DNA of 64,000 nt from Craspedostauros australis (lineage: Eukaryota; Bacillariophyta; Bacillariophyceae; Mastogloiales; Achnanthaceae), in contig JAMXDE010000014.1 in the NCBI GenBank assembly GCA_026770025.1, forward strand, positions 930,001 to 994,000. Direction: 5' to 3'. A program made the position numbers and the translations under genes. Shown here piece by piece: positions 3,001-49,292 of this stretch (the first letter of the stretch is position 1; each line of letters starts with the position of its first letter). The notes under the pieces are model-generated. The model was not told where the DNA came from and did not search any database. It saw only the letters and a list, made by a program, of their open reading frames with translations.

Positions 3001-5233
3001 GTCATCGGTCGTGGAATGGAGACCGTCGGTGATGAAGTCTACGACAACCGCGAAGGGAGCGTACGGAATGAAGAAGAAGGACAAGGCGGATCTTGCGAAG
3101 GTCCAGGACGGTCGCAGCGCGCCGAAACTGACGGGTAGCGGCCGCCACGATGGTTCCCAGTACACTTCAACGAAGTCGCTGGATGATCCATCATCCATCG
3201 CAGCTGTCGTTTTCGGTCTGGACCTTCTGAATCGATGCTTGAAGTCGCTCAAGACGAGCCCCGAAATGACGGACCCGTACATCCCGCTTCTCACGTCTTG
3301 CGTGAAGACCTGTCGGGATAACCAGGTGGTTTTCAGCGCCTTCAAGTGCTTGGCAATTCTGCTGCGCTTCGACCTTCCATCCACGCCATCGTGCGCCAAG
3401 ATTCTCGGCACCAAATCCCTGGAATCGCTGGTGGTAGCGCAAGCATCATCGAAGCAAAACAATGACCTCATTCAAGTCTGCTTCCGCAACGTAACGTCGT
3501 TGATGAAACTCGCTGGAGAGGACTTTGCTTCAGGAAGCGGTAGTGGGGGTAACTCCAAGACGAATGGGATGGACTTGGCCGCAGCTGTGGAAGCACCGCT
3601 GTTCCCATTCGACAGCGAGCAAATGAAGATGCTGATCTTGTCCATCAAACGAACCATCTTCGAGGCCGATCAGCACCACCCCGCCTTGGGGTTGATCAAG
3701 GCAGTCCTGTCGAAGCGATACATCTCGTCCGAGCTTTACGATCTGATGGACGACATGCTCAAGGTATCGGTGCGAAGTCTGAAGGAGTCGTTGCGCCAAA
3801 ACAGCGGTCGTCTCTTCACCCGCTTCCTCGTCGATTACCCGATGGGCTCGGTCAAGTTCGAACGGTACCTCAAGCAGCTCCTATCCAACGTGGCTTACGA
3901 GTACGCGGAGGGCAGACTGTCCGCCATCAAACTGGTGGACGAGGTTATCTCCCAGCTGCCGATGGAGCTCGTGGACAAGAATTCGAACTCCATGTTCCTC
4001 TCGTTGGTGCTGCAGATGCAGAACGACGAATCCAAGGAATGCAGGGAAGCGCTGTCGTCGTGCTTGTCGAATCTGTTCTCCCGATCGTCGATGGACGTCT
4101 TGCGGTCGTTGCTGGATTACACGAAGCGTTGGTTTGACACAAAGGGGCCTCTCAAGGCAGCAGCGCTGCAGCTGTTCGGGCTGTTCATCGATGCAAGGTT
4201 CGATGCTCTCCAGAGGGGCAGCCACTTCGATGAAGTGCTGTCGCATGTTCACGCGACTCTCACAGATTCCGGTGCCAACTGGGAATGCATGTACTTCAGC
4301 CTAACCTGCCTGGAGAAGATCGCACCGAACCGGCCGCTTTCGCAATTCATGAGCGAGGAGCTGTGGGGCGCCTCGTTGGAATGCCTGATACATGCGCACC
4401 CTTGGGTGAAGCTGAAGTCTGCCCGCGTCATCCATCTGCAGCTGCAGGATGCTGCACACACCGGTGGCATTGCCACGGTGGAGGGCCGCAGCTATCTCTC
4501 GAATTCCATGAAGATCACCGTGAAGCATCTGTGCTCCCAGTTCAAGGTGAAAGACGAAGAGTTCGTCGATGGCGTTGCCGAGCTGTCCGTCAAGTCCCTC
4601 TGCCTGATTCTGCCATGGATCGAGTCACATCCGCACCTCTTCGTCGAGAAGAGGACGGAAGACGATCAGGTCGCCAACAAGAAGGTCGGCGAGGATGATG
4701 ATGACGATGCCGTTGCCATGCATCCCGTCGAGATCCTCATCAAGCGCCTGTCGAACATCGCGAAACAGAAGATGATGAAACGGCGCATGTCGGTGTTCAA
4801 GTGCTTCGCGGCCTTCCTGTCTACCCACAAGGAAATCGTCGTGCCGCACATCGCGGTGATGCTGGAACCCATCCACCGCACCATCGTCGAGTCCACGAAC
4901 GAATTGGAGAATGCGGCGAATGCGACGCGGCGCAACCCGACCGTGTCCGCCGCCGTCGAAGGCCAGGCCGAGTTCGCACAGGATCTGCTGCAGCTCGTGG
5001 AGGACAGCTGCGAGTCGCCGCAGCAGTTCCTGGATGCGTACTCCATCGTGAAGCAACGCGCCCGCAACAAGCGGGAGAAGCGCAAGCTCGATTTCCGCAG
5101 CGAGCTGGTGCGTGATCCCATCCTCGCCACGAGGAAGAAGCAGGGCAAGTACGAACGCGACAAGAAGAGGCGCAAACGCCGTGCTCATGAAGCCAAAACC
5201 GGTTTCCGTCGTCGGCATCCTCCACAGAGATGA
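2..5233 (+). CDS. UTP20: UTP20-like U3 snoRNP / SSU processome protein, C-terminal part (5' end outside window)
   Basis: UTP20 is a large HEAT-repeat scaffold of the nucleolar small-subunit processome, needed for early 18S pre-rRNA cleavages. The frame is open from base 2, so the gene continues upstream of the window; about 1743 residues are visible, against roughly 2500-2800 in full-length family members. Recognition rests on a helical block around 2190-2600 ('IRDVGRSTIAKV', 'LKEGYKLHVRSATVH', then a 'DMFG' stretch) that lines up with the corresponding UTP20 segment, and on the very basic tail ('VKQRARNKREKRKLDF') typical of the family C-terminus. An acidic run followed by a Ser/Lys-rich run (about 2870-3010) is probably a disordered nucleolar linker. 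No intron is needed. An RRP12-type HEAT protein was considered, but the C-terminus fits UTP20 better. Confidence 0.82.
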   Translation, partial: ASADADSDQAHGSVNEASNAGIDDSNDTDIDANAGAGSTTVRMRSIRSLCFSRLSDVFNRFCGRMDLEHFSGPLWDSLHQSLIMLPEMTVASNGVPALLTLLTTMSSYTSTINMLSTNPATIEAVLKCIDRRCSPATITCCLRFVENLMDDTDDEGGRRTSGQTLVLSNLSLVFARFIDRLGGKARDADDSPNTPTNVGGNGSNRGRAHHSDTWRQELRILFKLSEAVISRTDMIPDDSALLEELLSLIVPLVEVRRSVTEADLLNALGIIRTLVPKIGERSALDTYFDLSTALAPKKGSTGLISLQIRQEISSIILTIANKQSGLRHVADTLGGLSAVSSKRVDELNLEIVIVHLAKLCSDDDQGESPWLSMLSGSEDDPTLLSPVVNACFHFIYDSDMVLARTAFSAIKHLIATGANQIEQEQNSSVDGPWQKYMESYIVPAIRNGFSSRNAAERRYFLLMIAEVARKFQSHPSQHLHGDLFCLCSDENPDVDFFQSITHVQLHRRARALKRLRETLRKQLAVASSSAAADDDDGGERKREVKTYSISNVLLPIVIHPVYEVATNAEETMAIEAIATAGVVAKTLSWSKYSALLWTSLRSFERNQQQERYIVGLVCSILDGFHFDVIRRLPARGEDWKSGDENAPAAAGDGDNINYEQTSVWRALERRLIPGVEGLLTKEKTDKHGTKTKTPRPAIVLALLKLYHKFPTEFFEMRLPRVLAILCDALKAKDSNIRDVGRSTIAKVSTSIDIKYLADVVRELAITLKEGYKLHVRSATVHTILLEVEKKYNDLVSSDEAGALELSKGLDHCVMPLMDIFQQDMFGVTQERKDSENRVSFVKEASGNKGVNGIEIVCRLVQFKPSQIQHATTGAPGGSAVHCIISPLLQRLRQPDVSAVTVRRIQEVLSRASIGFSKNRSITPEEALPFVYATLQPFITPESASRNGVGDGTAGEMHVDSDDDSSDDDDEADDDAIRVSGSKKSSKTKSKRKKSSKKAGSSSVVEWRPSVMKSTTTAKGAYGMKKKDKADLAKVQDGRSAPKLTGSGRHDGSQYTSTKSLDDPSSIAAVVFGLDLLNRCLKSLKTSPEMTDPYIPLLTSCVKTCRDNQVVFSAFKCLAILLRFDLPSTPSCAKILGTKSLESLVVAQASSKQNNDLIQVCFRNVTSLMKLAGEDFASGSGSGGNSKTNGMDLAAAVEAPLFPFDSEQMKMLILSIKRTIFEADQHHPALGLIKAVLSKRYISSELYDLMDDMLKVSVRSLKESLRQNSGRLFTRFLVDYPMGSVKFERYLKQLLSNVAYEYAEGRLSAIKLVDEVISQLPMELVDKNSNSMFLSLVLQMQNDESKECREALSSCLSNLFSRSSMDVLRSLLDYTKRWFDTKGPLKAAALQLFGLFIDARFDALQRGSHFDEVLSHVHATLTDSGANWECMYFSLTCLEKIAPNRPLSQFMSEELWGASLECLIHAHPWVKLKSARVIHLQLQDAAHTGGIATVEGRSYLSNSMKITVKHLCSQFKVKDEEFVDGVAELSVKSLCLILPWIESHPHLFVEKRTEDDQVANKKVGEDDDDDAVAMHPVEILIKRLSNIAKQKMMKRRMSVFKCFAAFLSTHKEIVVPHIAVMLEPIHRTIVESTNELENAANATRRNPTVSAAVEGQAEFAQDLLQLVEDSCESPQQFLDAYSIVKQRARNKREKRKLDFRSELVRDPILATRKKQGKYERDKKRRKRRAHEAKTGFRRRHPPQR

Positions 5234-23477: not shown

Positions 23478-26400
23478 ATGACAACGGCTCATCCTCAGTC
23501 TGCCTCGTATGGCAGCATGGGAATGAACGGCGGCACCAATGGCCGTGTGGCCATCCATGCGGACTCTGAGGATATGGACGAACATACGCATGAGGAATCA
23601 GAGCTGCTGGGCGAGGCGCTGGTCAACACCGATGCTGAGGACGATCTCCAGCAACGCCGTGCTGGTCAGCCGTCCGTGATGGACAAGAGGAGAGAGAACT
23701 CGGGCCTCTTCCGCGACAGTCAGTCCCCCCTCTCGCAAAGCCAAAGACAGAACGAGGGCAGTGGTGGTCAACCCACTAGCGCATACGGAGTCAACAGAGT
23801 CCTCATCGTGGCGTTCCTCACTCTCGTCATGGGCATATTCCTCATCATCTTCTTCCCCCGGTCTGCCAGCCTCGTCATCCCGGCATCGGCGATTCTCCAT
23901 GTCCCCTTCCAATCGGTCGACCGGGCCGATTTCCATGACCCCGTCGAGGGCATCCTCGACATCCGATTGTTTCATTCCGATCTACTGGCGAAGCACAGCG
24001 ATGACAACTTCTTCAGCTTCCCATTCCCAACAGGGGCATTCTGGACCAACCTCGTTGTCCCGCCACCGCAAGGAGAGCAGTTCTCCTACCCGGCAGCCGT
24101 GTATCCGTATGCCTACCGGTGGGCCCAGAACGCCCTGCAGCTATCGTACCCATCCAGCCACAGGACCACCACGGACACGATGATCATTGACAGCAGCATG
24201 CCGGACCTCACCTTCATGGTTCTGGAGGATGGCGTGGACAATCGCAAAGTCACCCGTTTTGATCCTCTCAGCGTCACCTTGGAATTCAGCAAATCGATGT
24301 CGGCCAAGTCGACCAAGTGGGAAACGACGCTGGTGCAAGGGAGTCCGTATGCCACGTTCAAGTTCAAGCGTGCAACGCCCATGATCCATTCCCTCAGCAA
24401 ATTCAAGGCAGTGCAATGCCCGGGAGACGATGCAGAGAACTTTGAGGATCTTCAGAACGATGGGGGCGGATCCAATGGCGACGGCACAGGCCGAAAACTC
24501 TTCGGAGTCTGCACCATCGACGTGAGTGGCTTTGTTCGTTCGTTGTTTTGTCTTGTTTTGTTTGAAACTATCCTATCCTGCCTCACTTCGGTATCAATCG
24601 AACCAGACTGGACTGACCTGAACTTACACGTCATGTTACAGATGCAGTGCAACACAGAAGTGGCACACTGGAAACTCACCCAATCAACGTGCAATCATCA
24701 TCATTCCATGTCGCTATGTATCTATTCTCCGTCTTCCTCTCTCACCGTTGCACCTACACCCGCACGATACATATGCAGGACTCGGATGAGCATGTGACGT
24801 ACGTCCGAGGGGTGCAATTCATCCTCAAGACGCAGGAGGGATATTCCTGGATGGTGTTCACATCAGAACCTGTCGACTTCATGTTTGATCCAATCGAAAA
24901 AACGATGGTCAAATCGACAGAGAAATTCACTGGTGTCATGCGCGTCGCCATCATTCCATCAAAGGATGATGTTTCGCTTGCGTCCACGGGGTTGCGGCGG
25001 CTCGTGCACCACGTCGGGGTGTATCCGGTGGGCGGAGACGTCACATGGGGGTTCAGCCGGACCTCACATGCATCAGGCGCCAAGCAAGAGCAGGACCAGG
25101 CAACGAACGCGACCAGCAAGTACGCCACCCTTCGATTCAACTTTGAAACGGAGCTGATGAATGAGAACTACCTGCAACCCCATGCGGCGAGGAAGGATTT
25201 GCTCATGCTGGCGTTGCCACACCACCTGCAAGTCCTGCCAGCGGACTCGGTGCTCGATCGTCAGCACTTCAACATGACCTACCGTTGCATCAAGGGTGAG
25301 ATGAGGCCGGTGATTGGATCATCGTGGTCGCTTCATGAACCCTTGCTGGATCTCAAGTTCGATGGACCAGTCAGTTCGTGGGATGATGGGGTGCGTGAAG
25401 TGATTTTGGAACAAGCCATGGATGATCTCACACGCATTAGCCCAACCCAAGATGAAGACATTTACGGCTTCGGCAAGCAGACTGCCAGATTTGCGCAGAT
25501 CCTGCACGTTTGCAGGAGATTGTTGGGATTGGGTATTGGTGGTGTCAGCAGCAACAGCGACGGCAGCAGCAGCAGCAGCAGCAACAACGACAACAATGTG
25601 CCTGAGCACATCGTCGACAAGTACCTTCCAGTCCTCGAAAATGCGGAGGTAAAACTATGGGGATTCCTTGAGGTGCTCTTCACTGGTGGCACACAAGATG
25701 AGTTGCTCTTTGACACGAAGCTTGGAGGCCTGGTGGCAAAGCACGGGCTCGAGGTTCCTGATTCTGACTTCGGCAACGGCAGATACAATGGTGAGCGAAC
25801 ATGGAGTGTTTGGTTTCGCGACAGTCCACGTACACTTGATTGATTGTTTGATTGTGTCGTTAGTTTGTGAACATCACAGTTGCTATCCGCGCACAGAAGC
25901 CAAGACTGAGCCTTCGGGTGCGATTGCGATTGCACCCGTCTTCTCACATCCTCGTCAAAATGCTCTGTTTGTGCGAAACTTCCCTCAACCATCACTTGCC
26001 TACCTCGCACGCGTCTCCTCTGGATGATCCACCAGATCACCATTTCCATTACGGGTACATCCTGTACGCGTCTGCGCTGATGGGTAACATGAACTCCACC
26101 TTCGTCTCAACATTCGGCACCTACGTCGATTCCGTCTTTGCGGATGTTGCCTACTACGGCAACAAGGACTCCGAGACGATCGTGTACGGCAGCGAGGCGT
26201 TCTTCCCATTCGCAAGACACAAGTCCTGGTTCGACGGACACTCCTTTGCGACTGGATTGTTTCCATTCGCCGACGGCAAGTCCCAGGAGAGCTCCAGCGA
26301 GGCGGTCAATTGCTACTTTGGCGCGTACTTGTGGTCGCTCATTCGCCATGGTGACAACGATCCATCCGGCATCACCGATTTCGCCCGGCTGATGCTGGCA

Positions 26401-29739: not shown

Positions 29740-32700
29740 CTACTTGCGGCCGTTGCCTGCGTTGGTTTGGGAAGTCACGATATCTTCCTTCACCTTCTCC
29801 AGAACAGACAACCATTCGGAGGCCTCGGCCGGTGATGGGAGCCGCAGGACGCACTTCTTCCCCCGTTGGCCTTGGGCGGCGTTGAGCAAGAACCTGGAAC
29901 CACGGCCGGTGTTTGCCTTGTTCTCCTCCACAATCTCGATCTGGCTTTTTCGCATGGTAGTCACCGAGACGGTGCTCTTCGAGAAGTTCAAGGTCATGAA
30001 CGGCGTGAGACGTTTGACGACCTGCTTTCGCTGTTGCGACCAATCCTGGATCGTGGTCAGATCGTCCGACGGCAGCAGCGAGTTGAAGGCTTCTTCCACG
30101 GTGAGGGAGGACGAGAAAGGTTGCGGCACCTCCAAAACGTGCATCATGCCATCCGACGTCACGATGATCAGCGCCGTCTTCCACGTGGCGTTGACCAACG
30201 ATCCGAGCACCGATGGTTTCAGCTCCACCAGCTGCTTGTTCCGCACCATGGAACTTTCCAACGGGTCCCCGAACACCATTTCGATGTCCTCGATCTTCGT
30301 TTCCTGCGTCTTCCCCTCCAGCCGCGATCGATTCATGATGGACGATTTGTGCATGTACGAGCTCTTCAGGTGTGTGTGAGATCTCTCCTTGATCGATCCA
30401 TCGATGACCGCCTCCAAAGTTTCCTCGTCGATGCGGAGCCCCACCAAATCCTCCAAGATCACCTTGAAGTGCTCGGGCAGGCCTGTGAACAGACGGCGCT
30501 GACGTGGGACGAAGGTGAGCATCGACTCCTGCAGCCTGCGTTGCACCTTGTGCTGCACGCCCGCAATCTTCCCGTACACCTCCTTCAGCTCCTTCCTCCC
30601 AAGATCGAACAAAGTGCTTTGGTACAATACGGCTGAGCGGTAGTACGTCTCCACCAACCAACCGTCCTCTACGACGTTGGCCGTACGCAAAGGTCCCTTC
30701 AAAATTGGAGAAGTCGTGGACATGCCGCCCAATGCTGACTCGGTGTCACCGCGTGGTGTGAGCAGGCCATGCATGCTTGAGCCATAATTGGCGGTCCCAT
30801 GCAAGCTGGAGCCGTGAGTCGATCCATGAAGACTTCCGTGCACGCTGTATTCCATCAAATCCCCTGTCACCATACCATCAAACATGTCTGTTGGTTGAAG
30901 TGCGATGTCCCATACGATGGTGGAATTGTAACAATGGCAGAGTCAAGTCGAAGAGGGCAGAATGTAGTATGAGAGAGTGCAGGAAGTCGACCCGAAGTCA
31001 AATCGAACATGTAGTCAATACCGGAGTGGTGTTGCATGCAGCAGTGTGAGAAAGCGGAGGGTGGCATCTGCACCGGTAGACATGGTGATAATTTGTGCAT
31101 GACGGCATCAATCTGGCATCGCATGGTATCCCATCACATTTGATCAAGATGCAGTTGATGCACGAGCACCAGACTCATTCTGCTGCAGACATTTCAGCTC
31201 GGTCAACTTGCCATGGGACGGCGTGAACGAGACAAACAACGGCAAGGATACCAGCGATCATCTCGATGTTGCACAACAAGCCTCATCAGTGAACTTACCC
31301 CATATCTTGTTGATCTCCATCTCGGATCGTTTCATCTCCGCCAGCACTCTCGAACCATTGAGCTCGAGTTCCTTCGCCGCAGCCTCCACTTCGACCCGCA
31401 GCTCGGCGATGTAGGGCAGAATCTCTTCTTGCATATGCATCGAGTTCTCGCGAAATTGTTCCATGATGAACCTTTGCGATTCGATGATGGAATGCAACAA
31501 GGCCGATTGCTTTTGGCCTTCATTTGCGGCTTTGCCATCGTTCACATCGATGGTGTACTCCTGAATGCGACGACGGTGCATCAGCCGATTCTGGAGGAAT
31601 GAGTTCGTTACCGTCTTCCCCTTGTTGTCAAGAAACTTGTCTTCGTAGATGGACTGTATGGAAGCGGAGAACAGCATGCCCGCCTTGGATGTTCCAACGA
31701 CCAACCGTTCTGCGATTTTGACCTCTTCAATCCCCTCGGCCAAGATATCCTTGGCTGCCTTCCATTCCCCATTCAGGTATTCCAAGTCTGCCATTATGTC
31801 GGACCGACGCTTTGATTCCCACGCTATGAGGTCATTGTGCACTTGGATTCGCAGGGTTGGATCGGAGCCTGGCATTTGGTGCGACAGCGAGATAATGTCC
31901 CCTGCCATCGATGGCTGCGAGATTGCAGAGTCTCTGGATTTATCCTGACTATCCATTGAATTGGTTGCTCCGATGTCCAGGTCTCTGAAGAAGCGCATGT
32001 GCCGTTGGGAGGTTTTGGTCTCATGTCCCTCGACAATTACCGACATTCGCTGCGGTGAAAGTGCCAACGGTATCGGCTGAGCCGAGGGCGTCGCTACTGG
32101 CGTTGTGGGTGCAGATGCCGAAGAGGTAGCAGCTGTGTCGACTGCGTGCGTAACGGCTTCCTCTTCGGGAATAACGCGGTCGAATGGGCCGTCGTCCTCC
32201 ACGTTTGGTCCGGCGTGTCCGTTGTCATTATCATTGCCATTGGCTTCGACTTTCAGTGGGGAATCACCATCAAACCCTGCTTTGCTTGCATGATCATTCG
32301 ACGCCATTCTCTCGTCTCCATTCGCCTGAGCCTTTGTGGTCTGAGATTGAGCAGCCATCATCACAGGAGTTTCATTGACGAAACGGTGTTCCAGCTTGCG
32401 TGTCCCCACTTCCACCTGCAACTCTTCCTCCTTCGCTCGTGCTTCCCATTCGTGCACCAGTGATCGTCGCTTCCCCGTGCCGCGAATGTTGTCGAATCGT
32501 GGGGCTCGCGGTGGTGTGGAAAGGATTGGGCTGTGTGCGTCGATGATGTGCTTGGAATTCTCCACTTCATCATCCTCATCTTCATCCTCTCCAGGTTTCG
32601 CTTCCTCTTGTTCGTGTTCACCAAGCGAGTGCAGTTCATCGGACATCTTGGCTTGATTGTTTGCACCGTCGCCAGGATGCTGCATCTCACTTTGATCGGT

Positions 32701-34611
32701 CTCACCCAAAGGAGGCTCATCCTGCTTGACAGCTACGCTATGCGATTGCACTGAATCCATTCTTTCGGACGCAACATCAAGGATCTCGGGCAATCCGTGC
32801 GAGGAACGCTGTTCGCTCTCATTCTGACCGTCCTCATCTGTCTTGTCGTATGCTGGAGGCGCAGGAGTGACTTCAATTCCTGCTTGCGAGTCGTCCTTTT
32901 CGTCGTTCCACAGCTTATCGAAATCATCACCTTCGTCATCGTCGTCACCAAAGCCACTGACATGGGCATGTGCATTGCCAATGTGATTGACAGCAGAATG
33001 AGCATCAACATTAGTTTGGGTTTCGGAATCGACAACGACGATATGAGGACTGCGATCGTCACCGTTCAAAGTGTCTTCTGACTGCATTGGCGCATTGTCC
33101 GCGACGGCTGATTGTGGCATTTGTACGTCCTCGCTTTGGATCTCCCCATCCTCAGTGCCAGTGTCAGCGAGTTGCTCAGAAACTATCTCCTTGACGATTC
33201 CACGAGTGTGGTCGTCAACCGCAGTGGCGTCGGCATCGACATCAGCATCAGTATGGTGCATGATTCCATCCGTTGCCGCCGCGACGGAAGCGAGGCTTTG
33301 CATGATTTGTTGATCTGGAAGCACCTGTTGCTGTTGGTCTTCTTGTTCTTTCACTTGCCTTTGTTGCGCCGCTTGTTGTTGCACAGGCGTGGCATCTGTT
33401 GGAGATGAAGCGCCATCCTCCGTCGATGACGGTGAACCAATTGTTGGCGCCTGCGGTTGCTCAGCTTGCAGAGATGAGCGCTGTTGAGGAGGCTGCGTCG
33501 TTGCGGATTGATCCTGCGGGGTTGCAGGTGTCGCCTGCTTCGTTGGTGTCCCCGATGCTGCAGGCGCGCTCGTGGTGGTTGTGGTGGTTCGGGACGTCGA
33601 GGACAATATTTCCATGTCGGTCGGTGGCTCCTTCGAATTTATTTCCTGCGGCTGGTGCTGTTCTTGCTGTCCTTGTTGTCCCTGTTGTATTTGCCGTTGT
33701 ATTTGTTGCTCACGCTCCATTTGCTGCTGCATTTGTTGCCGCTGTTCTTCTCGTTCATGTTCCTGCTGCTGTTGCTCCTGCCTCCTTTGCATGAGCTTGC
33801 GCTGCTTTCGTTCTTCGGCCCGACGGTGCTTGGCTTCTTTGGCCTCTCGCTGCGCCTCCATCTGTATTAGTCGCTGCTCCTTGATGAGTTCCTTGAGATC
33901 CTCATGCGCAGCCTCGAATTTGTAATGCGGGACGAAGTAATAGCCGCCGGTGGGCTTGCCACTCATGGACAGGATTCTGTCCTCCTCCCTGCGTTCAATT
34001 CCCAACGCCTGCATTTCGTACTCGGTGATGCTGATGGGGACCTTGTGGCGACGGGCCGATGCCAGTGGATTGTCGTAGAAGGTCTTGACGACGTGGGGAT
34101 GGAAGTGATGCAATGCAACGTAGCGTCGTTTGGATGGATTGGACGAGAAGGCGTCCGCCCCGATGCTTTCGTTGTCCTTCTCCAAATGGCGGACGTAGGC
34201 AGCGCGCAGGTTGTTGCGGAAGACGTATTTGTACGCCGGCGGGTTGCTGCGATAACGGGGCAGTTCCACGTAATGGCAGCGTGGATCTCCGAGCATTCGG
34301 AAGGCCTGCGTCATGCCCGTGCACTTCATTCCACGACCGCAGGCGCAATCCCGATACTGCTTCTTCGCGTCGCGGTTGTCGTTGCGTGGCTCATTGTGCG
34401 CGCTGTTGTGACCATCGCTGTGGGTATCACCATGGGTCCGCGAGTGCCCTCGTGCTTGGCCATCCGAATGGCTGCGCGAGTATCTTCGGCTGTCGCGCTG
34501 TTCGCCGTTTCTGCTCTCGTGAGCGGGCCTCCCATCACTGCGATCCCCATTGCCGAGGCTGGTATGGCGGTCGCTGCTTGTGGCGCCATGGGACGCAGCA
34601 TTGTGCGACAT
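29740..34611 (-). CDS. Large coiled-coil protein, putative BAR-like plus PH C-terminus, 2 exons
   Basis: Exons on the minus strand are 34611-31299 and 30887-29740, joined through a 411-bp gtaagt...cag intron in phase 1 ('EINKIWDMFDGMVTGD'); 1486 residues. After a Ser/Arg/His-rich start there is an ordered region (about 90-250) with 'CACGRGMKCTGM' and 'PHYKFEAAHEDLKELIKEQ'. A Gln-rich coiled coil (about 255-330) and a long acidic disordered middle follow. From about residue 960 to 1290 comes a helical domain ('AWESKRRSDIMADLEYLNGEW' region) that spans the exon junction. The end ('CVLRLPSPAEASEWLSVLE') looks like the last helix of a PH domain. A BAR-then-PH order recalls Slm-type membrane/actin regulators, but that is inference; no family was recognised outright. 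The gene diverges from the KVRR repeat protein. Confidence 0.6.
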
Positions 34612-34643
34612 ACTGCGAGTATTGCGTACTGCGAGTATTACGC
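34612..34643. repeat. Direct 16-bp repeat immediately upstream of the BAR/PH-like gene
   Basis: Two tandem copies of about 16 bp containing 'actgcgagtatt' lie directly in front of the minus-strand ATG at 34611, in the probable 5' UTR. Confidence 0.8.
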
Positions 34644-36003
34644 ACTGTGATGCACTCGTCCTGGTGTATCAGGAGAGTGCTGTGGTTCTGCACTGCTCAA
34701 TCTCCACGTTCCTGTCCGGATCAGCGCCCCCCAAGTCTTCAGCTTCGTCTCTGTTTGTGATGAATTGCGATAAACTGCCTGTTCAACGCAGCCCTTTGCA
34801 ACTCTGCGCAGTCCAGGCCGATTCCGGTTGTGCAGTGGTCGCACTCGCAAAGAGATCTCGGCGAACAGGGCGCTCCACGATCGCACTCGGGTTCGAGTTC
34901 TGTTGACGAGCGTTGATCGATGCAAGCAAGAACGTGTGGAACAGTTGCTCTGCGATGGACGACTTCGGTGGTCCGCCGAATAGTTGCGCTTTGGCTGCTG
35001 ATGACGACAACTCCCACCAACGATCTTTGAGCGATGGTATCGTACGACTCCTCTCTGCCACCCTCCTCTACTGTTCGTATTGGTACACGCGCGCTTGTTG
35101 CTGCAGAAGCAGAGAGTGGATCGCTTTCGTATGGTGCGTGTGTGCTGCGATACGACTGCAAGCGCTGGAGTACGCGGAGTATTCGCAATGGTGGAGGCAG
35201 AAAGGAGAGGAGATGTCGTCACTCGCCGTCGCCTTGTCAGCAAGCCAAGATGGCGCACCTGCGCGGTGCCTCCGCACGCGCCGACGTTCCCCACGATTCT
35301 GCACAACAGCACAACAGCCTCCTGTTCCTCTGTTGTGCCACGATCGTGTGTGCTGTTGCGGACAAACGGTACAAGAAACACGGCGCAACTCTGCACGCGT
35401 CGTCCTTCGACGATATTCTCGTCCCTCATGTTGGTCCAATTGGTCGGTTGTATCATCTTCCCTACGAAGCACAGACGAGTGGAATGGAATCGATTTGATA
35501 CCTTCGACTCAGTCGACCTATTTAGATACGGATTTCACGCATGACCGTGGCAGAAATGACCGATCTGAACAAGGAGTATCCATGCTGCGTCGCACTGTAT
35601 TGCTGTGCTTTTGACTGTGGCAACAAGACCAACCAGGTGCGCGGAGAGATGGTGAGTGACAGAATTGTGTTGGGTGCAGTCGCTGCGACACACGAAGAGA
35701 CTGCTTCCTCTCTCTTCATCGTGTTGTATCGTGTGAGGACGAGCACAGTGTTGGTACACACGAACCGTATCCAGAGAAAAAACGGGTTGGGCGGAGCGAG
35801 GAAGCAAGAAGAGAGGCAAGGGAGAGGTGTCGTCGTTAGCCTTTGGCGGGTCTCCCTCGCGTCTTTCCTTCAGACTTTCCACCCTTTTTTGTTCGACTTC
35901 CATTGCTTTGCGTCTATACTTGCATGCTTCCGCATACACCTTGCTGCATTGCATTGCATCACATCGCATCGCATCAGTTTGCGTCTCTCTCTCTTGATTT
36001 GGT

Positions 36004-36953: not shown

Positions 36954-39900
36954 ATGTCTTCCGAAGAAACTCCCCAGAAGGTGCCCAGCAAATCATCCAC
37001 GGGCAATGGCGAGGTGTACATCCGCGAGGATGGAAAGAAGGTCAGGAGGGTGCGACGCACTGCTCCTGGTCGTTCATCCTCGTCACCCTCAGGCGCAAAC
37101 CTTCAGCAATTCCTTGCAACGACGGCGAGCAGCAGCGGGGATTCAAAACCGAGATCAAGGGGAGGCAGCGCATCGGTGGCTGGCGACGGCAGAGGCGACG
37201 TGTTCATCCGCGAGGACGGAAAGAAGGTTCGACGGGTCAGGAAAACAGCCTCGTCATCTTCCTCGTCCGTGGCTGACAAATCATCGGCCAGCAACGGCAA
37301 CAAATCCCTGGCAGGATTCCTCGACTCCAGAGGCCCATCCAAGCCAAGGCTGGGTGGCAGCGCGTCCGTCGCCGGAGATCAGATCGCAGTCAACAAGAGC
37401 TCCTCGTTGACGGGAGAGGTCTACATACGCGGGGATGGAAAGAAGGTTAGGCGCGTGAAAAAGAGCGCGGCGACCGAGTCCGCGTCAGGGGAGACAGTCG
37501 AGATTATCACCAGGCCAGACGGCACCAAAGTACGCAGGGTCAGGAAGCACAAAACATCCACCACCGCCAAACCTGCAACCTCGGGATCCGCAACAACCGA
37601 CACCACTTCCAAGTCGCAACTGTCTGGCTTCCTCGAAAAGGGCCAGTCTTCCAAACCCAAGGGCTTCTCGGGGAGTCACTCGGTAGCTGGTGATCAACTC
37701 CGTGCCTCTGACAAAACCTCAACGCAGAAGGGAGAGATATACATCCGCGCAGACGGTAAGAAGGTGCGTAGGGTGCGTCGTGTCAAAAAGGACACGGACA
37801 ACGCGGCGAATCCATCTCTCTCGGGCTTCCTTGATTCTAGCGCAGACTCCAAGCCAACTTCCTCCGGCGCAGCGACCGTCTCCGGCGAGATCAACCGCAC
37901 ATCCAAGCCGGAGCAACAGAGCGAAATCTACGTCAGGCCGGACGGCACCAAGGTGCGACGAATCCGGAGGACGAAGCCGAGCGCCAGCACTGCTGCTGCT
38001 GCCGGGGCCAGCACGTCGGCTGGTAGCGGGGGTGGCAAACAGTCTCTCGGCGGCTTTCTGGACAAGGGCGCGTCCAAGCAGCCGAAGAGGATGGGAGGCA
38101 GCGCATCCGTCGCCGGGGATCAAATTGCCGTCGACAAGAAGTCATCGCTCACCGGCGAGGTCTACATCCGAGCAGACGGAAAGAAGGTTCGACGTATCAA
38201 GAAGACATCGCCGCTTGCGTCATCGTCAAATGCCTCCCGCGACAACGTGGAGATCATCACGCGCCCCGATGGAACAAAGGTGCGCCGAATCCGCCGTGGC
38301 AAACCAAAGCCGGCAGCAGACGCAAACGCAGCCTCCGCGCAGTCGGCTGGGGGCCTGGGGGGCTTCCTCGATTCGCAACCAAAGACGTCGGTCAAGGGTG
38401 GTGCCGCGACAGTTGGAGGGGACAGAATCACATCAGCCGACAAGAAGGGCGGGAAGAAACCAATGGACGATTCAGGAATTTCCTCATCCTCGAAGCCTTC
38501 ACCATCCGCAGGCGACACCAAGAAATCCCTCGCAGGATTTCTGGACGCGCGCGGCCCATCGAAATCCAAAGTGGGTGGCAGCGCATCTGTTGCAGGTGAC
38601 CAGATTGCTGTGAAGAAGAGTTCCTCTCTTACAGGGGAGGTATACATTCGTTCCGACGGCAAGAAGGTCCGCAGAGTCAAGAAGTCGGCCGTCAACCCAG
38701 GCGACCAGGTCGAGATCATCACCAAACCAGACGGCACAAAGGTCCGAAGAATACGGCGTGCCAAGAAGTCAGACCAAGGAGGCGCGCTCGGTAACATGCT
38801 GGCATCAGATGAGGCCAACAAAAAGACGCGAATCACAGGCAGTTCCAGCGCTCCGGGCGACCAGCTGCTCAGCAAGGACGAGAAGGGCGAAATCTACGTG
38901 CGAGCAGATGGCAAGAAGGTCAGACGGATCCGGAAACCATCATCTGCGAGCGTTGTCGATCCCGACAAGTACGAGATCATCATCAAACCTGACGGCAAGA
39001 AAGTTCGTCGGCTCAAGAAGCCATCTTCGTCGGCCGCAAAGGAAGATGACAAGGCGACTGCAGCAGCGACAACCCCTGCTGCAGCCACCGCTGCCGAACC
39101 AAGTGTCAAACCTGCTGCGGAGACAGCGCCAGTTAAGACGGAAACCGTAGAGACACCAGAACCGCAGGCAGCTCCGGCGCCGACGCCAGCAGAAGAACCG
39201 GCGACACAACCCGCCTCAGACATTGCGGCTACGCCTGCACCCGCAACGCCTGCAGCACCAGTGGCACCAGCAGAGACACCAGAACCTGCGGCCGTCACTG
39301 AACCAATGACGGAGGAGTCTACAACACCGAAGGTAGAGACACCTGCCGCAGCGCCATCACCGACGCCCGCAGAGTCACCAGCAGAGACTCAGGTGGAAAC
39401 AGCTGTGGAAACGCCAGTAGAGGCAGAAACATCTGTCGCAGAGCCACAGGTCGCTGACGTATCGGCAGCGCCCGCAGTCTCCGCTACTCCAACAGACCCG
39501 GAAACTGACACTCCCGCGGCTCCCATCGCGCAAGCTGCAAGCGCAGTTGCGCCAACACCGGCAGAAGAGACCGCAGCCTCGAGCGAGGAACCTGACGTTA
39601 AACCCGAGACGCCTGCGGAGGCAGCACCAGCTCTGGTCACAGAGGAGGCAACAGAGCCCTCGGAACAGTCCGCGAGCGTCTCGGCAAGTATGGAGACAGC
39701 AGAGCCAGCCCCCGCAGCTGCAGCTGCACCGGCCCCTACCCCTGTTGCTGCGCCAGAGGCTGCTGTACCAGCTGCTGCAGCTGCAACCGTGACCGAAACC
39801 CAGTCCACCCAGCCGATATCAGCCCCTGTCGAACTTCAGGCATCGCCAACGAAGTCTGGCGCAGGTGGCGCATCGGTCATCACAGGAGTCCAAGGCGGTG

Positions 39901-42824
39901 GCGACTCTGAGTGGTCCAAGATTATTCCTCAAACCAAGGTTGTACCGGAGGGAATGACCGTTGTCCGAGAGGACCAAGTGCTGCAACCGGGCATGAAGGC
40001 TGTGCCCGCCGATCAACAGACGCTTCCACCTGGCATGGTCATGGTCCCAGCGGACAAGCTCAAGGAGTTGGAAGATGGCAAAATGCCAGACGGAATGAAG
40101 CCGGTACCTGCCGGTCAGGAAGTCGTGCCAGACGGTATGGTGTTGGTCCCGAAGGAGCAGGCCGAGCGTACGATACCCGAAGGTATGGTGGCGGTCCCCA
40201 AGGAAAAGGCCGCCGATGGTATTCCAGAAGGATTCGTGCTGGTCCCGAAGGACAAGGTACAAGGCAACATCGACGACGACCTTGTTTTGGTTCCCAAGGA
40301 CAAGGTCAAGACAGACGCCGACGGTGACGATGGCAAGGATAAGAACCCAATGGCTCACATCGTGCTGATGATGCCAGAGGAAGGCAAGGCCGACGAGTCC
40401 AAGGAGAAGGAGAAGGTTCCAGAGAACGTGGATATTTCAGGCGCCAACATCGTGTCCATGGAGGACTTGCCGGAGAAGATGGAGCAGCTTCGCAGCGAAG
40501 ATGGCACAAGGGCCAAATCCCCACCCCGGTTCCTGCTGCAGCCTCTCCCCAGCGATGCGAACCTCAGAGATGATTTCATCAAGAAGAATTTGCTTCCGAA
40601 GGAAGCCCCTGCTCCGGCCCCAGCTCCTGCACCAGCGCCAGCACCGGCGCCCCCACCCAAGCCTGCGGAACCATCAGCGGATATCGCGCAACTTCTTGCA
40701 AAGATCTCGACTATGGACAACGTCGACGGCGAGAAGATGGGCGAGCTGATCCGCCGCCTGCAGGACTCAGAAAAGAGACAAAAGAAGCTGGAGAAGCAGC
40801 TGCAGCAGGCAGGAGTTGCCATCGCCGAAGATATCGACTACGACATCTGTATGCAGAAGGTGCAAGAGATCGGAAAGCGAATGAACGAAATTGGAGGAAG
40901 TGATGTCACACATCCGGACAAGGAGGAACAGAACCGGCTGCGCGAGGAGTACTTCAAACTCGAGCAGGACATGGAAAAGTACAACAGTGCGCTGGTCATG
41001 ACAGACGAATATCAGGCCGAGCAAGACCGAGTCGAGAAGAAGTGGGAGGAGGACAACGAAGGTCCCAACATCGAGTCTCTCAAGAAGCTGCGTCGTCACA
41101 TGCCGGTCGAAGTGAGAAACATGAGCGAGGCCATGCTCGTGAACAACCCATCACCGAATGGGCAGTACCTACCGAAGTCCATTGCCAAGAAATTCAAGCG
41201 TACTAACGTGCTGCAGCTCATCCGACGTGACCCAGACGATATCGTCCGCATGCATCCATCGACTCTGGAGAACATGCGTGTTGTCGGTCTTACGCTGACA
41301 GAACGACGAGGATTGTACGAGCATCTGCGACCTGCGGGTCCGAAATGGAAGGCCCAGAAGGCTGAGAAGATGACGGAAAGGAAATGGACGTGGTACAACA
41401 TGATGAAGGGCAACTTCAAGGAGAATCTTGCCGCTTGGAACAGGCACGTGGCCCAATACGGACCTCCAGGAGCGCATCCGTACGCCACCAGAGCCAATCC
41501 AAACGAAGGCTGCCCGCTGATTGGAAAGCAATGTCCGCTGAAGGCCGACAAGATGATCGACTACGACGGAGACTTCGGTTGGACTGAGGAGCCCGAGTTC
41601 GAAGTGTCGGAGGTCAAGAAGGCCGACACCGACGATCCAGGTGCCAAGGCAATGGCAGAAGCAAAGGAGCTCATGAAGGAGAAGAAGGCCGGCGAACGTG
41701 GTGACGCACTCAAGAAGCATTACAAGGGCAAGCTGCTGCAGGTCGCCAAGGCCAACGGTAGTTGCGAGTCCATGGATGACGCCATGGACAAGATGGAGTT
41801 CGGTATGCTGAAATGGATCGAGGATATTGTCATCATGGGCGACGACAAGTCCAAGCTGACGGAAGATGTGAAGAAGAAAGAGATTGCCAACTTCACGGAC
41901 GTGCTGGGAGGTGTCAAGCTGTTGATCCTCGACTTTTGTGAACGCTCAGGAATGCAGCTCTCTGGAAAGAAGAAGGCTGGAGATGAAAATCCTGACATTC
42001 GAAGTGCGGTGGAGTGTAATCTGGCGGAGGAGCTCGTCGAAGCGTTTGAAGTCTTTACGAAGTTCGTGAATGGCAGAATGAAGGACATGGAGATGGTGGA
42101 TACTCGTGTCAAGTCGACCATCGACATGCTTCAGGGTCTGCTGAAGGGTCTCCACGAGCGCAACGAAAGCACTCTGAAGAACCTCGGCGTCGAGCGCGGC
42201 GAGCGATCACGCAAGTTGCTGACGCAGAAGGAGATCGAAGAGGATATCAAGAAGAAGCTCAAGGACAGCGAGCCCCCACCGGGCGAAGAAGACATGGGCG
42301 GTGGCGGTGGTGGCGGACCAGCCATGCCAGGTCCGCCTCGCGGTGGCCTCATGGACGCTATCAAGGGTGGTGGCGGTGGCGGCGGCGGGCGAGGAGGTCT
42401 GCTCGCGGCCATTGGCGGACGTGGAGGTGGACGCGGCGGTGGCGGTGGACGAGGAGGTTTGCTCGCGGCCATTGGCGGACGCGGTCGTGGTGGTGGCGGC
42501 GGCGGCGGCGGGCGTGGAGGATTGCTCGCGGCCATTGGCGGACGTGGTCGTGGAGGTGGTGGCGGTGGTGGACGAGGAGGTTTGCTCGCGGCCATTGGCG
42601 GACGTGGTCGTGGAGGCGGCGGCGGAGGAGGAGGTGGTGGAAGAGGAGGTTTGCTCGCAGCCATTTCTGGTGGACGAGGCCGTGGCGGCGGCGGCGGTGG
42701 TGGAGGAGGAGGCCGTGGTGGACTAATGGCTGCGATCCAAGGCCGTGGTGGAGGGGGTGGTGGCGGTGGTGGTGGAGGCCGTGGTGGACTAATGGCTGCG
42801 ATCCAAGGCAGAGGCGGCGGTTAA
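36954..42824 (+). CDS. 1956-residue modular repeat protein: KVRR modules, PEGM repeats, unknown domain, WH2-like Gly-rich tail
   Basis: One uninterrupted exon starting 'MSSEETPQKVPSKS'. Residues about 18-690 hold twelve basic modules of two kinds, 'GEVYIRADGKKVRRVKK' and 'VEIITRPDGTKVRRIRR'. The linkers recur ('SLAGFLD', then 'GGSASVAGDQIAV'). Residues about 696-960 are an Ala/Pro/Glu/Thr spacer, and about 998-1120 carry eight 'PEGMVxVPKxK' units. A poly-(AP) stretch (about 1218-1238) leads into a coiled coil. A charged, conserved-looking helical domain (about 1340-1780) includes 'LGGVKLLILDFCERSGMQ'. The last 175 residues repeat 'RGGLLAAIGGRG' or 'RGGLMAAIQGRG' eight times, reminiscent of the 'LLxxI' half of WH2 actin-binding motifs but lacking LKKV. 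There is no signal peptide or transmembrane segment, so it is probably cytosolic or cytoskeletal. The family was not recognised; the role is unknown. Confidence 0.9.
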   Translation: MSSEETPQKVPSKSSTGNGEVYIREDGKKVRRVRRTAPGRSSSSPSGANLQQFLATTASSSGDSKPRSRGGSASVAGDGRGDVFIREDGKKVRRVRKTASSSSSSVADKSSASNGNKSLAGFLDSRGPSKPRLGGSASVAGDQIAVNKSSSLTGEVYIRGDGKKVRRVKKSAATESASGETVEIITRPDGTKVRRVRKHKTSTTAKPATSGSATTDTTSKSQLSGFLEKGQSSKPKGFSGSHSVAGDQLRASDKTSTQKGEIYIRADGKKVRRVRRVKKDTDNAANPSLSGFLDSSADSKPTSSGAATVSGEINRTSKPEQQSEIYVRPDGTKVRRIRRTKPSASTAAAAGASTSAGSGGGKQSLGGFLDKGASKQPKRMGGSASVAGDQIAVDKKSSLTGEVYIRADGKKVRRIKKTSPLASSSNASRDNVEIITRPDGTKVRRIRRGKPKPAADANAASAQSAGGLGGFLDSQPKTSVKGGAATVGGDRITSADKKGGKKPMDDSGISSSSKPSPSAGDTKKSLAGFLDARGPSKSKVGGSASVAGDQIAVKKSSSLTGEVYIRSDGKKVRRVKKSAVNPGDQVEIITKPDGTKVRRIRRAKKSDQGGALGNMLASDEANKKTRITGSSSAPGDQLLSKDEKGEIYVRADGKKVRRIRKPSSASVVDPDKYEIIIKPDGKKVRRLKKPSSSAAKEDDKATAAATTPAAATAAEPSVKPAAETAPVKTETVETPEPQAAPAPTPAEEPATQPASDIAATPAPATPAAPVAPAETPEPAAVTEPMTEESTTPKVETPAAAPSPTPAESPAETQVETAVETPVEAETSVAEPQVADVSAAPAVSATPTDPETDTPAAPIAQAASAVAPTPAEETAASSEEPDVKPETPAEAAPALVTEEATEPSEQSASVSASMETAEPAPAAAAAPAPTPVAAPEAAVPAAAAATVTETQSTQPISAPVELQASPTKSGAGGASVITGVQGGGDSEWSKIIPQTKVVPEGMTVVREDQVLQPGMKAVPADQQTLPPGMVMVPADKLKELEDGKMPDGMKPVPAGQEVVPDGMVLVPKEQAERTIPEGMVAVPKEKAADGIPEGFVLVPKDKVQGNIDDDLVLVPKDKVKTDADGDDGKDKNPMAHIVLMMPEEGKADESKEKEKVPENVDISGANIVSMEDLPEKMEQLRSEDGTRAKSPPRFLLQPLPSDANLRDDFIKKNLLPKEAPAPAPAPAPAPAPAPPPKPAEPSADIAQLLAKISTMDNVDGEKMGELIRRLQDSEKRQKKLEKQLQQAGVAIAEDIDYDICMQKVQEIGKRMNEIGGSDVTHPDKEEQNRLREEYFKLEQDMEKYNSALVMTDEYQAEQDRVEKKWEEDNEGPNIESLKKLRRHMPVEVRNMSEAMLVNNPSPNGQYLPKSIAKKFKRTNVLQLIRRDPDDIVRMHPSTLENMRVVGLTLTERRGLYEHLRPAGPKWKAQKAEKMTERKWTWYNMMKGNFKENLAAWNRHVAQYGPPGAHPYATRANPNEGCPLIGKQCPLKADKMIDYDGDFGWTEEPEFEVSEVKKADTDDPGAKAMAEAKELMKEKKAGERGDALKKHYKGKLLQVAKANGSCESMDDAMDKMEFGMLKWIEDIVIMGDDKSKLTEDVKKKEIANFTDVLGGVKLLILDFCERSGMQLSGKKKAGDENPDIRSAVECNLAEELVEAFEVFTKFVNGRMKDMEMVDTRVKSTIDMLQGLLKGLHERNESTLKNLGVERGERSRKLLTQKEIEEDIKKKLKDSEPPPGEEDMGGGGGGGPAMPGPPRGGLMDAIKGGGGGGGGRGGLLAAIGGRGGGRGGGGGRGGLLAAIGGRGRGGGGGGGGRGGLLAAIGGRGRGGGGGGGRGGLLAAIGGRGRGGGGGGGGGGRGGLLAAISGGRGRGGGGGGGGGGRGGLMAAIQGRGGGGGGGGGGGRGGLMAAIQGRGGG
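37008..39022 (+). repeat. Twelve coding repeats 'I(R/T)xDG(K/T)KVRR' with recurring linkers
   Basis: Within the modular protein, module A ('YIRxDGKKVRRVKK') and module B ('EIITRPDGTKVRRIRR') alternate irregularly and are separated by linkers built on 'GFLD...GGSASVAGDQ'. Nucleotide identity between copies is high but not perfect, suggesting old internal duplications kept by selection. Confidence 0.92.
39943..40315 (+). repeat. Eight coding repeats '(I/V)P(E/D)GMVxVP'
   Basis: Successive units read 'VVPEGMTVV', 'LQPGMKAVP', 'LPPGMVMVP', 'MPDGMKPVP', 'VVPDGMVLVP', 'IPEGMVAVP', 'IPEGFVLVP' and 'IDDDLVLVP', spaced about 13-20 residues apart. Confidence 0.92.
42330..42822 (+). repeat. Gly-rich coding repeats 'RGGL(L/M)xAI'
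   Basis: Eight copies are separated by poly-Gly/Arg linkers: one 'RGGLMDAIKG', five 'RGGLLAAI' and two 'RGGLMAAIQGRG'. The DNA is a GGC/GGT-rich minisatellite and prone to slippage, so copy number may vary between strains or assemblies. Confidence 0.92.
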
Positions 42825-46496: not shown

Positions 46497-48578
46497 TCAA
46501 TGGTGCGCATTATGTGCCTTGCCTCTCGCCACGTTGAGTGAATGCTTGAGCAGGCCGCGGACGTTGCCAAGGCCGCCGCCCGTGCCTCGGTCGGACAAAC
46601 AAATGACCATTGATCCGTTCAGCGTGGACTCGTCAGATGCAGCAGCAAAGCCAACGACCACTTCGTACAAAGCAGCAGTCGGCTCCGCTGCAGCGGCACC
46701 TTGGCGAATTTTCTGAGCGATCGCGTCCGAAATCTTCGTGAGCTTGATTCGCAGATGCGAGCATGTATCCAGCTGGATTGGCAGCGACCCTGGCGTCGTG
46801 GAGCACACCACGATGACAAATTCGGACGGAATTCCTGGATCCACGATCGATTGATACATCTCGTCCACCGACGTAGCGTCTCTAGCGAATAATTGAGTTG
46901 CCACGATCTGCGCGGAACCGCTCTTGCTCCCTGAGAGCGACTTCTCAATCTCGGCGTCCAAGGCGCGGAGGGATGGTGGACTTTGGGACGATTTGGTGGA
47001 AGCTGCAAGGTGAATAACCCGGATACGGCTTCCCGTCTTTGGTTTTGTACCAAGATGCTTCGATTCCTTCACCTTCACAGCCTTGATGGCACCTCTCACA
47101 TGGGTTTCGAATGTCAATAGCAGAGTGTACGATTCTCCAGCAAGAGCCTTTTGTTTGCTGGGCGTTGCCTGCGGAAGCACCAAGAGACCGTCAGCCCGGT
47201 GCAGACTCATGAGACGTGACGAACGCTGCACGCCAGTGGAGGAGACGTAAATCTTCCCATCTTCGAAGCGGTCGACCGTGACTCGACGATACTCGGGCCG
47301 TTCTGCATCCAGTGCGATATCGTGCGTGAGAACGCCTCTGGCCTCGGGATGAGTGTTGCAATCATCAACACAGAGTTGCATGAGTTTGTCGTTGCTGCTG
47401 CTGCTGTCGCTGTTGCTAATTGTCTGATCGGATTGCCGCGGGTGGTTCATTTGACATAGCGCAGCGAGGCACGGCTTGACGAGCAGGTGCGTGCAGACGG
47501 TGCAGGAGACAGGATTACCCGGCATGGCGAATGCCAACCTCGTTAATCCATCATGCGGAATGGTGACGAACGTTGTTGGTTTGCCCGGCTTCATGTGCAT
47601 CCTTCCAAAATGCAGCGTTCCGCCGCACTTGCTCACCAGGACGTCCTCGACGATATCAGACTCGCCCACGGAGATGCCGCCGGTGGTGATGATGACATCG
47701 CAAACCGCCAACGCCTTGCGCACGCAGTCCGCCATCGCATCGATATCATCATCGCGTTGGATACCAAGGTCCACCGAGTCACAATTCTCAAACGTGGAGA
47801 GCAAGGAGAGGAGGATCGGGCGATTGACATCCGGTATCTGACCGGGGCGCGTAATGTCCTTGCGGCTGCGGACGAGCTCATTTCCCGTGGATAGGACGCC
47901 GACCTTTATCCGTGACTGAACGCGAAAGGAATCGACTCCAGATTGCTTGAGCAGACCAAGCGAGATGGGGTCAAGCGCGATGCCCTTGTGAAGCAGGACC
48001 GAACCTGCCGGAATATCGCAACCAACGGAGCGAACGAACTTTCCCGGCTGAATGGTGGCTGATGGCTGGACTTGGATCAAAGACTTGTCGGCAGACACTT
48101 TGCATTCCTCGATAGGCACAATGCAGTCGCAGGAATCAGGTACCAGGGCCCCCGTTGTGATGTAGCATGCAAATGCCAATGCAGGCTGTCCGGTGCTGGA
48201 TGCTCCTGTGGCCGAATCATGATCGATCGCTGGTGGTTGCTCCGAGCCTGCGTAAACTCTCTCCGCGACCCTGTGAGTCCAGCCCTGCTGAGTGGTTTGC
48301 AAGCCATCGATCGAGCGGACGGCGTATCCATCCATGATGCTCGCGTTGTACGGCGGATAGCCAGGCTCCGCCATGACAACATCCTCGGCCAAAACACGAC
48401 CAACGAGCTCTTCCCACGGATCATCGGGCGACTTTGCCTCGCTGTTGGGCATGCCGTGTGTGGCCGCAGGGGATCCTGATGGTGCAGGTGATCGCGACAG
48501 TGCACATCGCACAGTCTCGCGAAGGACAGTGCGGATGGCATCCGGAACTGCCACCATCGGGTGTTGTTTGATGTCCAT
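46497..48578 (-). CDS. Molybdopterin molybdenumtransferase (MoeA / Cnx1 E-domain) with degenerate MogA-like C-terminus
   Basis: 693-residue single-exon protein. The MoeA part inserts molybdate into (adenylated) molybdopterin to make molybdenum cofactor. Diagnostic segments are 'YNASIMDGYAVRS' (residues 77-89), 'GVLSTGNELV', 'DVIITTGGISVGESD', 'KPGKPTTFV' and 'AMPGNPVSCTV'. MoeA domain IV ends around residue 510. Residues 516-693 have the secondary-structure rhythm of the MogA/Cnx1 G domain ('RIRVIHLAAST', 'EFVIVVCSTTPGS', then 'GSMVICLSD' and a C-terminal helix). The signature 'GGTG' and the usual aspartates of an active adenylyltransferase are missing. The E-then-G order is the plant Cnx1 order. 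Function of the tail as a scaffold rather than an enzyme is inference. Confidence 0.88.
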   Translation of the reverse strand: MDIKQHPMVAVPDAIRTVLRETVRCALSRSPAPSGSPAATHGMPNSEAKSPDDPWEELVGRVLAEDVVMAEPGYPPYNASIMDGYAVRSIDGLQTTQQGWTHRVAERVYAGSEQPPAIDHDSATGASSTGQPALAFACYITTGALVPDSCDCIVPIEECKVSADKSLIQVQPSATIQPGKFVRSVGCDIPAGSVLLHKGIALDPISLGLLKQSGVDSFRVQSRIKVGVLSTGNELVRSRKDITRPGQIPDVNRPILLSLLSTFENCDSVDLGIQRDDDIDAMADCVRKALAVCDVIITTGGISVGESDIVEDVLVSKCGGTLHFGRMHMKPGKPTTFVTIPHDGLTRLAFAMPGNPVSCTVCTHLLVKPCLAALCQMNHPRQSDQTISNSDSSSSNDKLMQLCVDDCNTHPEARGVLTHDIALDAERPEYRRVTVDRFEDGKIYVSSTGVQRSSRLMSLHRADGLLVLPQATPSKQKALAGESYTLLLTFETHVRGAIKAVKVKESKHLGTKPKTGSRIRVIHLAASTKSSQSPPSLRALDAEIEKSLSGSKSGSAQIVATQLFARDATSVDEMYQSIVDPGIPSEFVIVVCSTTPGSLPIQLDTCSHLRIKLTKISDAIAQKIRQGAAAAEPTAALYEVVVGFAAASDESTLNGSMVICLSDRGTGGGLGNVRGLLKHSLNVARGKAHNAHH

Positions 48579-49292
48579 CTTTGTATTCGTACAGTGCGTA
48601 CCAGTGAGAAATGTCGATTTCTCCGTGCATGTACGTATTATAGTCGTATGACGTGTGAAATAGAAGAGAGAAAGAGCAGACTAGATTTGTGCTGCTATGC
48701 TGTTCTCGGGCCCTGTCGTAGAGTGCTTTGTGTTTGAAGACTGGGATGCAGCAGATCGACAAGCGCGACGAAGCAGTGTTGTGCCGTATCCTCTCGTCCT
48801 TGTCTCTTTTGTGTGTTGTTGTGTTCGCCTTTGGCCTGTTGCTGAAGCTGATAGATTATGCGTGTTGAAGGCAGACCATACGACCTGCACAGACCCAAAA
48901 GCGAAAGCGAAGGCGAAGCAGAAAGAAGATCCTTTCCGATCTTCGTGCGGACTCTTGGCACACGAAGGCTGCGCCCGCAAGCACATGTACGCATTGAGAC
49001 GGATCCTTCGGTACAGCTGACAATCATGCAGTGTCCATGGTGCGGTGATTATGCGCATGCCATGCGCAACACTATTGCATGTTGCCAGCACACAAAGTCG
49101 TGTTTAGTACAAGCGCACAGGTTGATTATGATAGTGACTGTTTCTTCGTTCGTTCGAGAGTTATAGAGTGCATTGCACTGCGCTTTATGCGCGTTCTGGA
49201 GCAATGCGATGTTGCGACCTCTTCCCAAGAGGCTGGCCAGACTTTCATCATACCATACGCGGACAGTTTTGCTTGGTGGCGTGTTGCCCGCA
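48579..49292. other. Intergenic region between molybdenum insertase and GOST genes
   Basis: 714 bp. No gene is seen. The motif 'gtattatag' at 48635-48643, about 57 bp upstream of the insertase ATG, matches the core of the AT-rich element at 8271 and 12801. Confidence 0.55.

Follow-up and report, generated by a model that had tools for sequence, protein, structure and literature searches.

A small family of unnamed diatom proteins includes a repeat-built member with a basic module array and a half-WH2-like tail, a candidate actin-linked scaffold

The genome of the diatom Craspedostauros australis (74.8 Mb in 90 contigs) encodes a giant protein rich in repeats, and what such a protein might bind is the question that this locus raises. 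The gene lies within the window, the whole 64,000-nucleotide stretch of DNA that was analysed (contig C12:930001-994000), at 36954..42824 on the forward strand. It is a single open frame of 1956 codons followed by TAA, starting at the earliest in-frame ATG downstream of the preceding stop, and predicts a protein of 203.5 kDa with a pI of 9.2. The first-pass annotation described one 5.9-kb exon, three repeat systems and an architecture without a named family. Judged by the open frame, which runs from ATG to TAA, the single exon holds, and no entry in Pfam, NCBIfam or the PDB corresponds to the whole layout. The three repeat systems are there, but the count was too low, as adding the two linker motifs brings the total to five. 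Is this protein a one-off, or does it belong to a family? Would its basic modules and its Gly/Arg-rich tail serve nucleic acid, filaments, silica-linked partners or actin? Our preferred reading, to which we give a probability of roughly 0.4, is that of a multivalent cytosolic scaffold linked to actin.

Judged by hydropathy, the N-terminus has no hydrophobic segment (the best 11-residue mean near it is -0.6), and no 19-residue stretch in the whole protein has a mean hydropathy above 1.4. This is consistent with a protein that has neither signal peptide nor membrane span, and agrees with the earlier claim that a signal peptide is missing; the secretory signal peptide that marks a silaffin-like cell-wall protein is absent by the same hydropathy measure. 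A charge-hydropathy disorder index was set aside because it scored even the conserved domain as disordered.

The basic N-half, residues 1-690 (36954..39023, +), consists of eight supra-repeats that together hold 12 modules, eight GFLD-type linkers and eight SVAGD-type linkers. In this grouping, which is our own reading of the sequence, each supra-repeat has one or two KVRR modules and then GFLD-type and SVAGD-type linkers. The modules are of two types, A (GE[VI][YF]IRxDGKKVRR) and B (EIITRPDGTKVRR), each with close variants. Twelve modules had been claimed and DG[KT]KVRR is counted in 12/12; the conserved linkers are likewise present, eight of each type, although the GFLD-type count of eight belongs to a wider pattern and a narrower one gives six. 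When the 12 modules are aligned, D, G, K, V, R and R do not vary, and 2000 shuffles of residues 1-690 produced no occurrence of DG[KT]KVRR.

Pooled over all unit pairs, pS and pN are 0.767 and 0.243 for the KVRR modules (12 units; 15 codons), 0.696 and 0.338 for the GFLD linkers, 0.776 and 0.258 for the SVAGD linkers, and 0.704 and 0.085 for the RGGLxxAI units at the other end of the protein. Because pS is high and pN low in all of these, the repeats point to protein-level selection and not to recent DNA duplication. By this measure the KVRR modules are old copies under selection, with saturated synonymous sites. The module DNA pattern has 20 matches in the whole genome, 12 in the window gene and 8 elsewhere; read backwards as a control, it has 3. 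Of the outside matches seven were translated, three of them reading KVRR and none of the seven having an EVYIR-type strand before the turn, while in the eighth (C3:2226945) the matched bases give Ser where the first Arg is expected. A protein search of the own genome found no second gene similar to residues 1-700 at E <= 0.001. From the sequence we propose for the basic array a role in targeting or in multivalent binding.

Could the modules be isolated hairpins arrayed along a filament, in a scaffold at the side of microtubules, centrioles or other filaments? Their look of strand, PDG turn and strand, as inferred from the sequence, is a likeness to the G-box of TCP10/CPAP, and in this reading each module would resemble one unit of the TCP/G-box found in centriole proteins. 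Tcp10_C (PF07202) does match weakly, at E 0.001 for the whole protein and in 3/12 modules alone (best E 0.0023), but its 19.1 bits lie far under the family cut-off of 36, the unrelated Tail_tube does equally well on another module (20.7 bits against 23), and long linkers isolate the modules of the window protein from one another. We regard a scaffold of this kind as very unlikely. Alternatively, the modules might be RNA- or DNA-binding elements or a series of nuclear-localisation signals, as parts of a nucleic-acid or condensate scaffold in which the tail would be an RGG box that binds RNA and drives phase separation, and short helices would make intermolecular sticky contacts. The net charge of +69 over residues 1-670 speaks for this, as do, a little, sub-threshold matches to Ribosomal_L24e (19.2 bits against 27), to ribosomal_L24 (1/12 modules, E 0.057) and to MazE (1/12 modules, E 0.028); against it, no RNA- or DNA-binding family of Pfam or NCBIfam rises above its cut-off. 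As assignments for the modules Tail_tube, Ribosomal_L24e and MazE were rejected at these scores, and the weak family matches to DUF1972 and DUF5689 were rejected also.

The modules give way to an acidic linker rich in Ala, Pro, Glu and Thr, recognised by composition (residues 691-960; 39024..39833, +), and residues 671-960 carry a net charge of -33. Eight PEGMxxVP-type units follow at residues about 996-1116 (39939..40301, +). The claimed number of eight is recovered on reading the printed sequence; regular expressions give six and seven, and the eighth unit, QPGMKAVP near residue 1011, was recognised by eye. No second genome copy of this region was found by protein search at E <= 0.001, and DUF1380, tried on it, was rejected at 18.9 bits against a cut-off of 26. 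A poly-Ala-Pro hinge at residues about 1217-1240 (40602..40673, +) draws the only PDB matches of the protein at E <= 0.1. The three matching sequences (E 0.0023) are every one a myosin light chain 1/3, a likeness that comes from low complexity.

Beyond the hinge, residues 1261-1558 (40734..41627, +) form an unnamed family domain, which has a predicted helical hairpin and then a conserved core with the blocks KFKRTNVL, MHPSxLE, GLTLTERRxLxxHL and CPLIGxQCP. A search with residues 1241-1787 returned six places in four genes of the own genome, and the same six were returned when the search was started from another copy. The five other copies are 40-46% identical to that of the window (E 8.8e-99 to 2.7e-64 against the window query). 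They are distributed as a single domain at C17:1118839-1120455 (41% over query 19-546) and as two tandem copies at each of C17:71417-73408 and C11:388837-390738. The helical middle noted in the first-pass annotation is therefore present and conserved but not unique, having five further copies in three genes. Among the six copies 58 columns are invariant, including two His and two Cys seven apart (CPLIGKQC), and a metal site at these Cys and His residues is possible. In a tree the window copy joins that of the single-domain paralog with support of 90/88, which falls short of the 95 mark; the two first copies of the tandem genes group at 96/96 and the two second copies at 100/98. The grouping of the tandem copies suggests one tandem duplication older than the separation of the two tandem genes.

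The second helical region, residues 1559-1786 (41628..42311, +), is matched in the own genome only in the C17:1118839-1120455 paralog, at 32% identity. Besides the domain and this helical region, the paralog has five RGGL units in its tail. No RGGL tail was found in the open frames of the two tandem-domain genes, and neither a KVRR module nor a PEGM unit in those of the three paralogs. Since domain and C-terminal layout are shared with a paralog, the window protein is, by sequence comparison, not a one-off: it belongs to a small family, and its basic N-half is specific to this gene. Does the gene, then, join two genes through an unrecognised intron or a frame error? The single-domain paralog, which has the C-half and neither KVRR nor PEGM, speaks for such an artefact to the extent that the two halves have separate histories. 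We nevertheless find a fusion highly improbable, given 1956 codons in one frame without a stop, a G+C by codon position that is steady over residues 979-1793 and shifts at parts of extreme composition (AP-rich and Gly-rich), and repeat units at either end of the gene that show selection on the protein.

Two smaller observations concern the paralogs. LPGFLD occurs once in the single-domain paralog (L010:2052-5276 (-)), at residue 142 of its open frame; it is like the repeated L[AGS]GFLD linker of the window protein and, as a lead only, might represent a short binding motif common to both proteins. On C11 the tandem-domain gene is directly preceded, on its own strand, by a frame of 763 aa (L009:4713-7001 (-) and 2284-4416 (-)) with KKLKKVEKLL-type segments, and the C17 tandem paralog has a similar segment ahead of its domains. 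An intron may separate the two C11 frames within a single gene.

No confident match of the central domain to a known family was found in Pfam, the PDB, or viral and prokaryotic contigs. A Pfam scan of the six copies touched 18 families, each for a single member (best E 0.015), and a PDB profile search of the core gave three chance-level matches only (E 0.26 to 0.68). Non-exhaustive pre-screens with short conserved peptides found no relative of the core domain in contigs from viruses or from bacterial and archaeal genomes: the viral scans returned 47 and 3 peptide-matching stretches and the prokaryotic scan 28, none of which encoded a relative. The databases covered were Pfam, NCBIfam, the PDB, the viral and prokaryotic contigs and the own genome. 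Core domain and architecture are unnamed within these libraries, and diatoms may well have orthologs among their uncharacterised proteins. In a literature search of incomplete coverage we recognised no work on the window protein, and 'KVRR' with 'diatom' led only to work on other organisms. Single-sequence AlphaFold gave the family domain a mean pLDDT of 45.8, with block values of 54-85 over domain residues 1-107 and below 50 over the remainder, and the second helical region, modelled as helical, a mean of 45.3. According to the model the domain probably begins with helices in a hairpin. At these pLDDT values the models are too poor for fold searches or for judging whether the tail helices dock.

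The C-terminal tail, residues 1796-1956 with the stop codon (42339..42824, +), carries amphipathic RGGL[LM][AD]AI units in Gly/Arg-rich spacers, and all eight of the RGGLxxAI units first reported are counted. Scanned in isolation, the tail matches Pfam WH2 (PF02205) at 32.9 bits and E 4.5e-8, with a cut-off of 23.1. This score is a sum, as none of the stretches passes by itself at E 0.5 and seven pass at E 5, and the best stretch covers model positions 1-17 of 28, Gly/Arg runs replacing the second half. None of nine controls matched (one reversed tail, three shuffles and five with only the helix letters permuted). WH2 is absent from the list for the full 1956-residue protein, the paralog's entire tail gave no Pfam match at all, and the window and paralog tails show no resemblance to solved chains. 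When ten pieces were scanned singly none exceeded the WH2 cut-off and five matched weakly; the weak single-unit matches (E 0.025 to 7) came from all four window units tried, of the eight, and from one of the five paralog units, and the end of a tandem paralog, scanned alone, gave no WH2 match. By sequence the N-terminal amphipathic helix of WH2 (LLxxI) is found in 8/8 units. The C-terminal basic extension of WH2, which is of the LKKT/V type, is not, and Gly/Arg comes after the helix. With 17 of 28 positions covered, no piece passing, and both the paralog tail and the full-protein scan negative, the tail is on this evidence half-WH2-like and does not make this a WH2 protein. The WH2-like tail of the first-pass annotation stands in that the WH2 model detects it in isolation, but for the first half only.

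The same tail contains 16 RGG and 20 RG, against one RGG in the other 1790 residues. Clustered RGG triplets in one C-terminal Gly/Arg-rich tail are its likeness to RGG/GAR-box proteins, and they add to what favours a nucleic-acid or condensate scaffold, the chief competing reading, which we hold possible if doubtful. An RGG box needs no fixed helix letters, yet 13/13 units of the two paralogs (eight in the window, five in the other) keep RGGL and an Ile or Leu at the eighth place, and the WH2 match was lost in 5/5 cases when only helix letters were permuted. Unlike RGG/GAR-box proteins, the window protein has regular 8-residue amphipathic units conserved between paralogs, and it has no RNA-binding domain above cut-off. 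Were the RGG reading true, this would be a large RGG scaffold.

We favour the actin-linked scaffold for two reasons: the WH2 signal comes from the helix letters and not from the Gly/Arg composition, and two diverged paralogs have kept those letters. From the observed anatomy, selection, paralogy and WH2 half-match we infer every binding step of the scheme and its direction of action. The eight RGGLLAAI helices in their flexible Gly/Arg tail would dock weakly on actin, as the N-terminal helix of WH2 does, so that one tail could gather several actin subunits. The family domain would let the protein oligomerise and would offer a partner site that the four paralogous genes have in common. The twelve basic modules would bind an acidic surface, which could be nucleic acid, the side of a filament or phosphoinositides in a membrane, and would thereby place the actin-gathering end. 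According to a review (PMC4506460), a WH2 domain lacks order before it binds, many proteins use amphipathic helices to dock into a single actin cleft, tandem WH2 repeats nucleate actin in Spire, Cordon-Bleu and VopF/L, and one Cordon-Bleu WH2 with a Lys-rich flank is enough for nucleation. The tail of the window protein resembles the tandem WH2 of Spire and Cordon-Bleu in having several spaced short amphipathic helices of LLxxI type. It differs from them in its eight units, each half a WH2, and its Gly/Arg spacers, and the protein has an unnamed family domain in place of any detected known actin domain.

Two further observations favour the actin reading: the own genome has a match to P34-Arc, an Arp2/3 subunit (50.3 bits, positions 116-239 of 243), with one internal stop that is perhaps an intron, and in diatoms actin rings outline the margin of silica while it forms (PMC3000822). 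Whole-genome searches for WH2 and profilin are uninformative, being empty in control genomes too, and the WH2 search missed even the window tail. In the accessible part of an actin-evolution review (PMC12050087) we found nothing on diatom actin regulators. A more specific and rather doubtful extension is that these proteins are lineage-specific factors of actin assembly or gathering, with an undescribed 300-residue domain and a half-WH2 array in a Gly/Arg tail, and that the window member gained a 12-fold basic targeting array; they would then belong to the actin machinery that silica-building algae use at the cortex or in valve formation. To our knowledge, proteins that control actin at forming diatom silica are hardly known. 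If the actin reading is true, an unnamed domain joined to a multivalent actin-type tail offers concrete genes to tag and delete; under either reading, six copies of an unnamed domain make a family worth adding to annotation libraries.

Might the protein instead organise the silica-deposition vesicle or frustule from the cytosol, its modules binding acidic or silica-linked partners and its tail linking to the actin ring? The genome is that of a silicifying organism, and PMC3000822 describes actin rings along the border of growing diatom silica. The sequence, however, shows no tie to silica, and hydropathy gives it no signal peptide or membrane span, so we consider this quite unlikely.

We call the genome silica-building because the silicon transporter family Silic_transp (PF03842) has 88 matches across many of its contigs. 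By hand count 31 of these span nearly the whole model (from <=11 to >=504), 28 of the 31 without an internal stop. Most diatom species typically have 3-5 silicon-transporter copies, according to PMC10700740, and the excess here could be an unusually large expansion, or several haplotypes, or mobile copies. Around the gene, a low-complexity frame of 1136 aa lies upstream on the opposite strand (31258-34668, -) and has no Pfam match at E 0.5. Further neighbours are a glycosyl hydrolase family 81 frame (24617-25843, +) and a MoeA-type molybdopterin gene (46497-48680, -).
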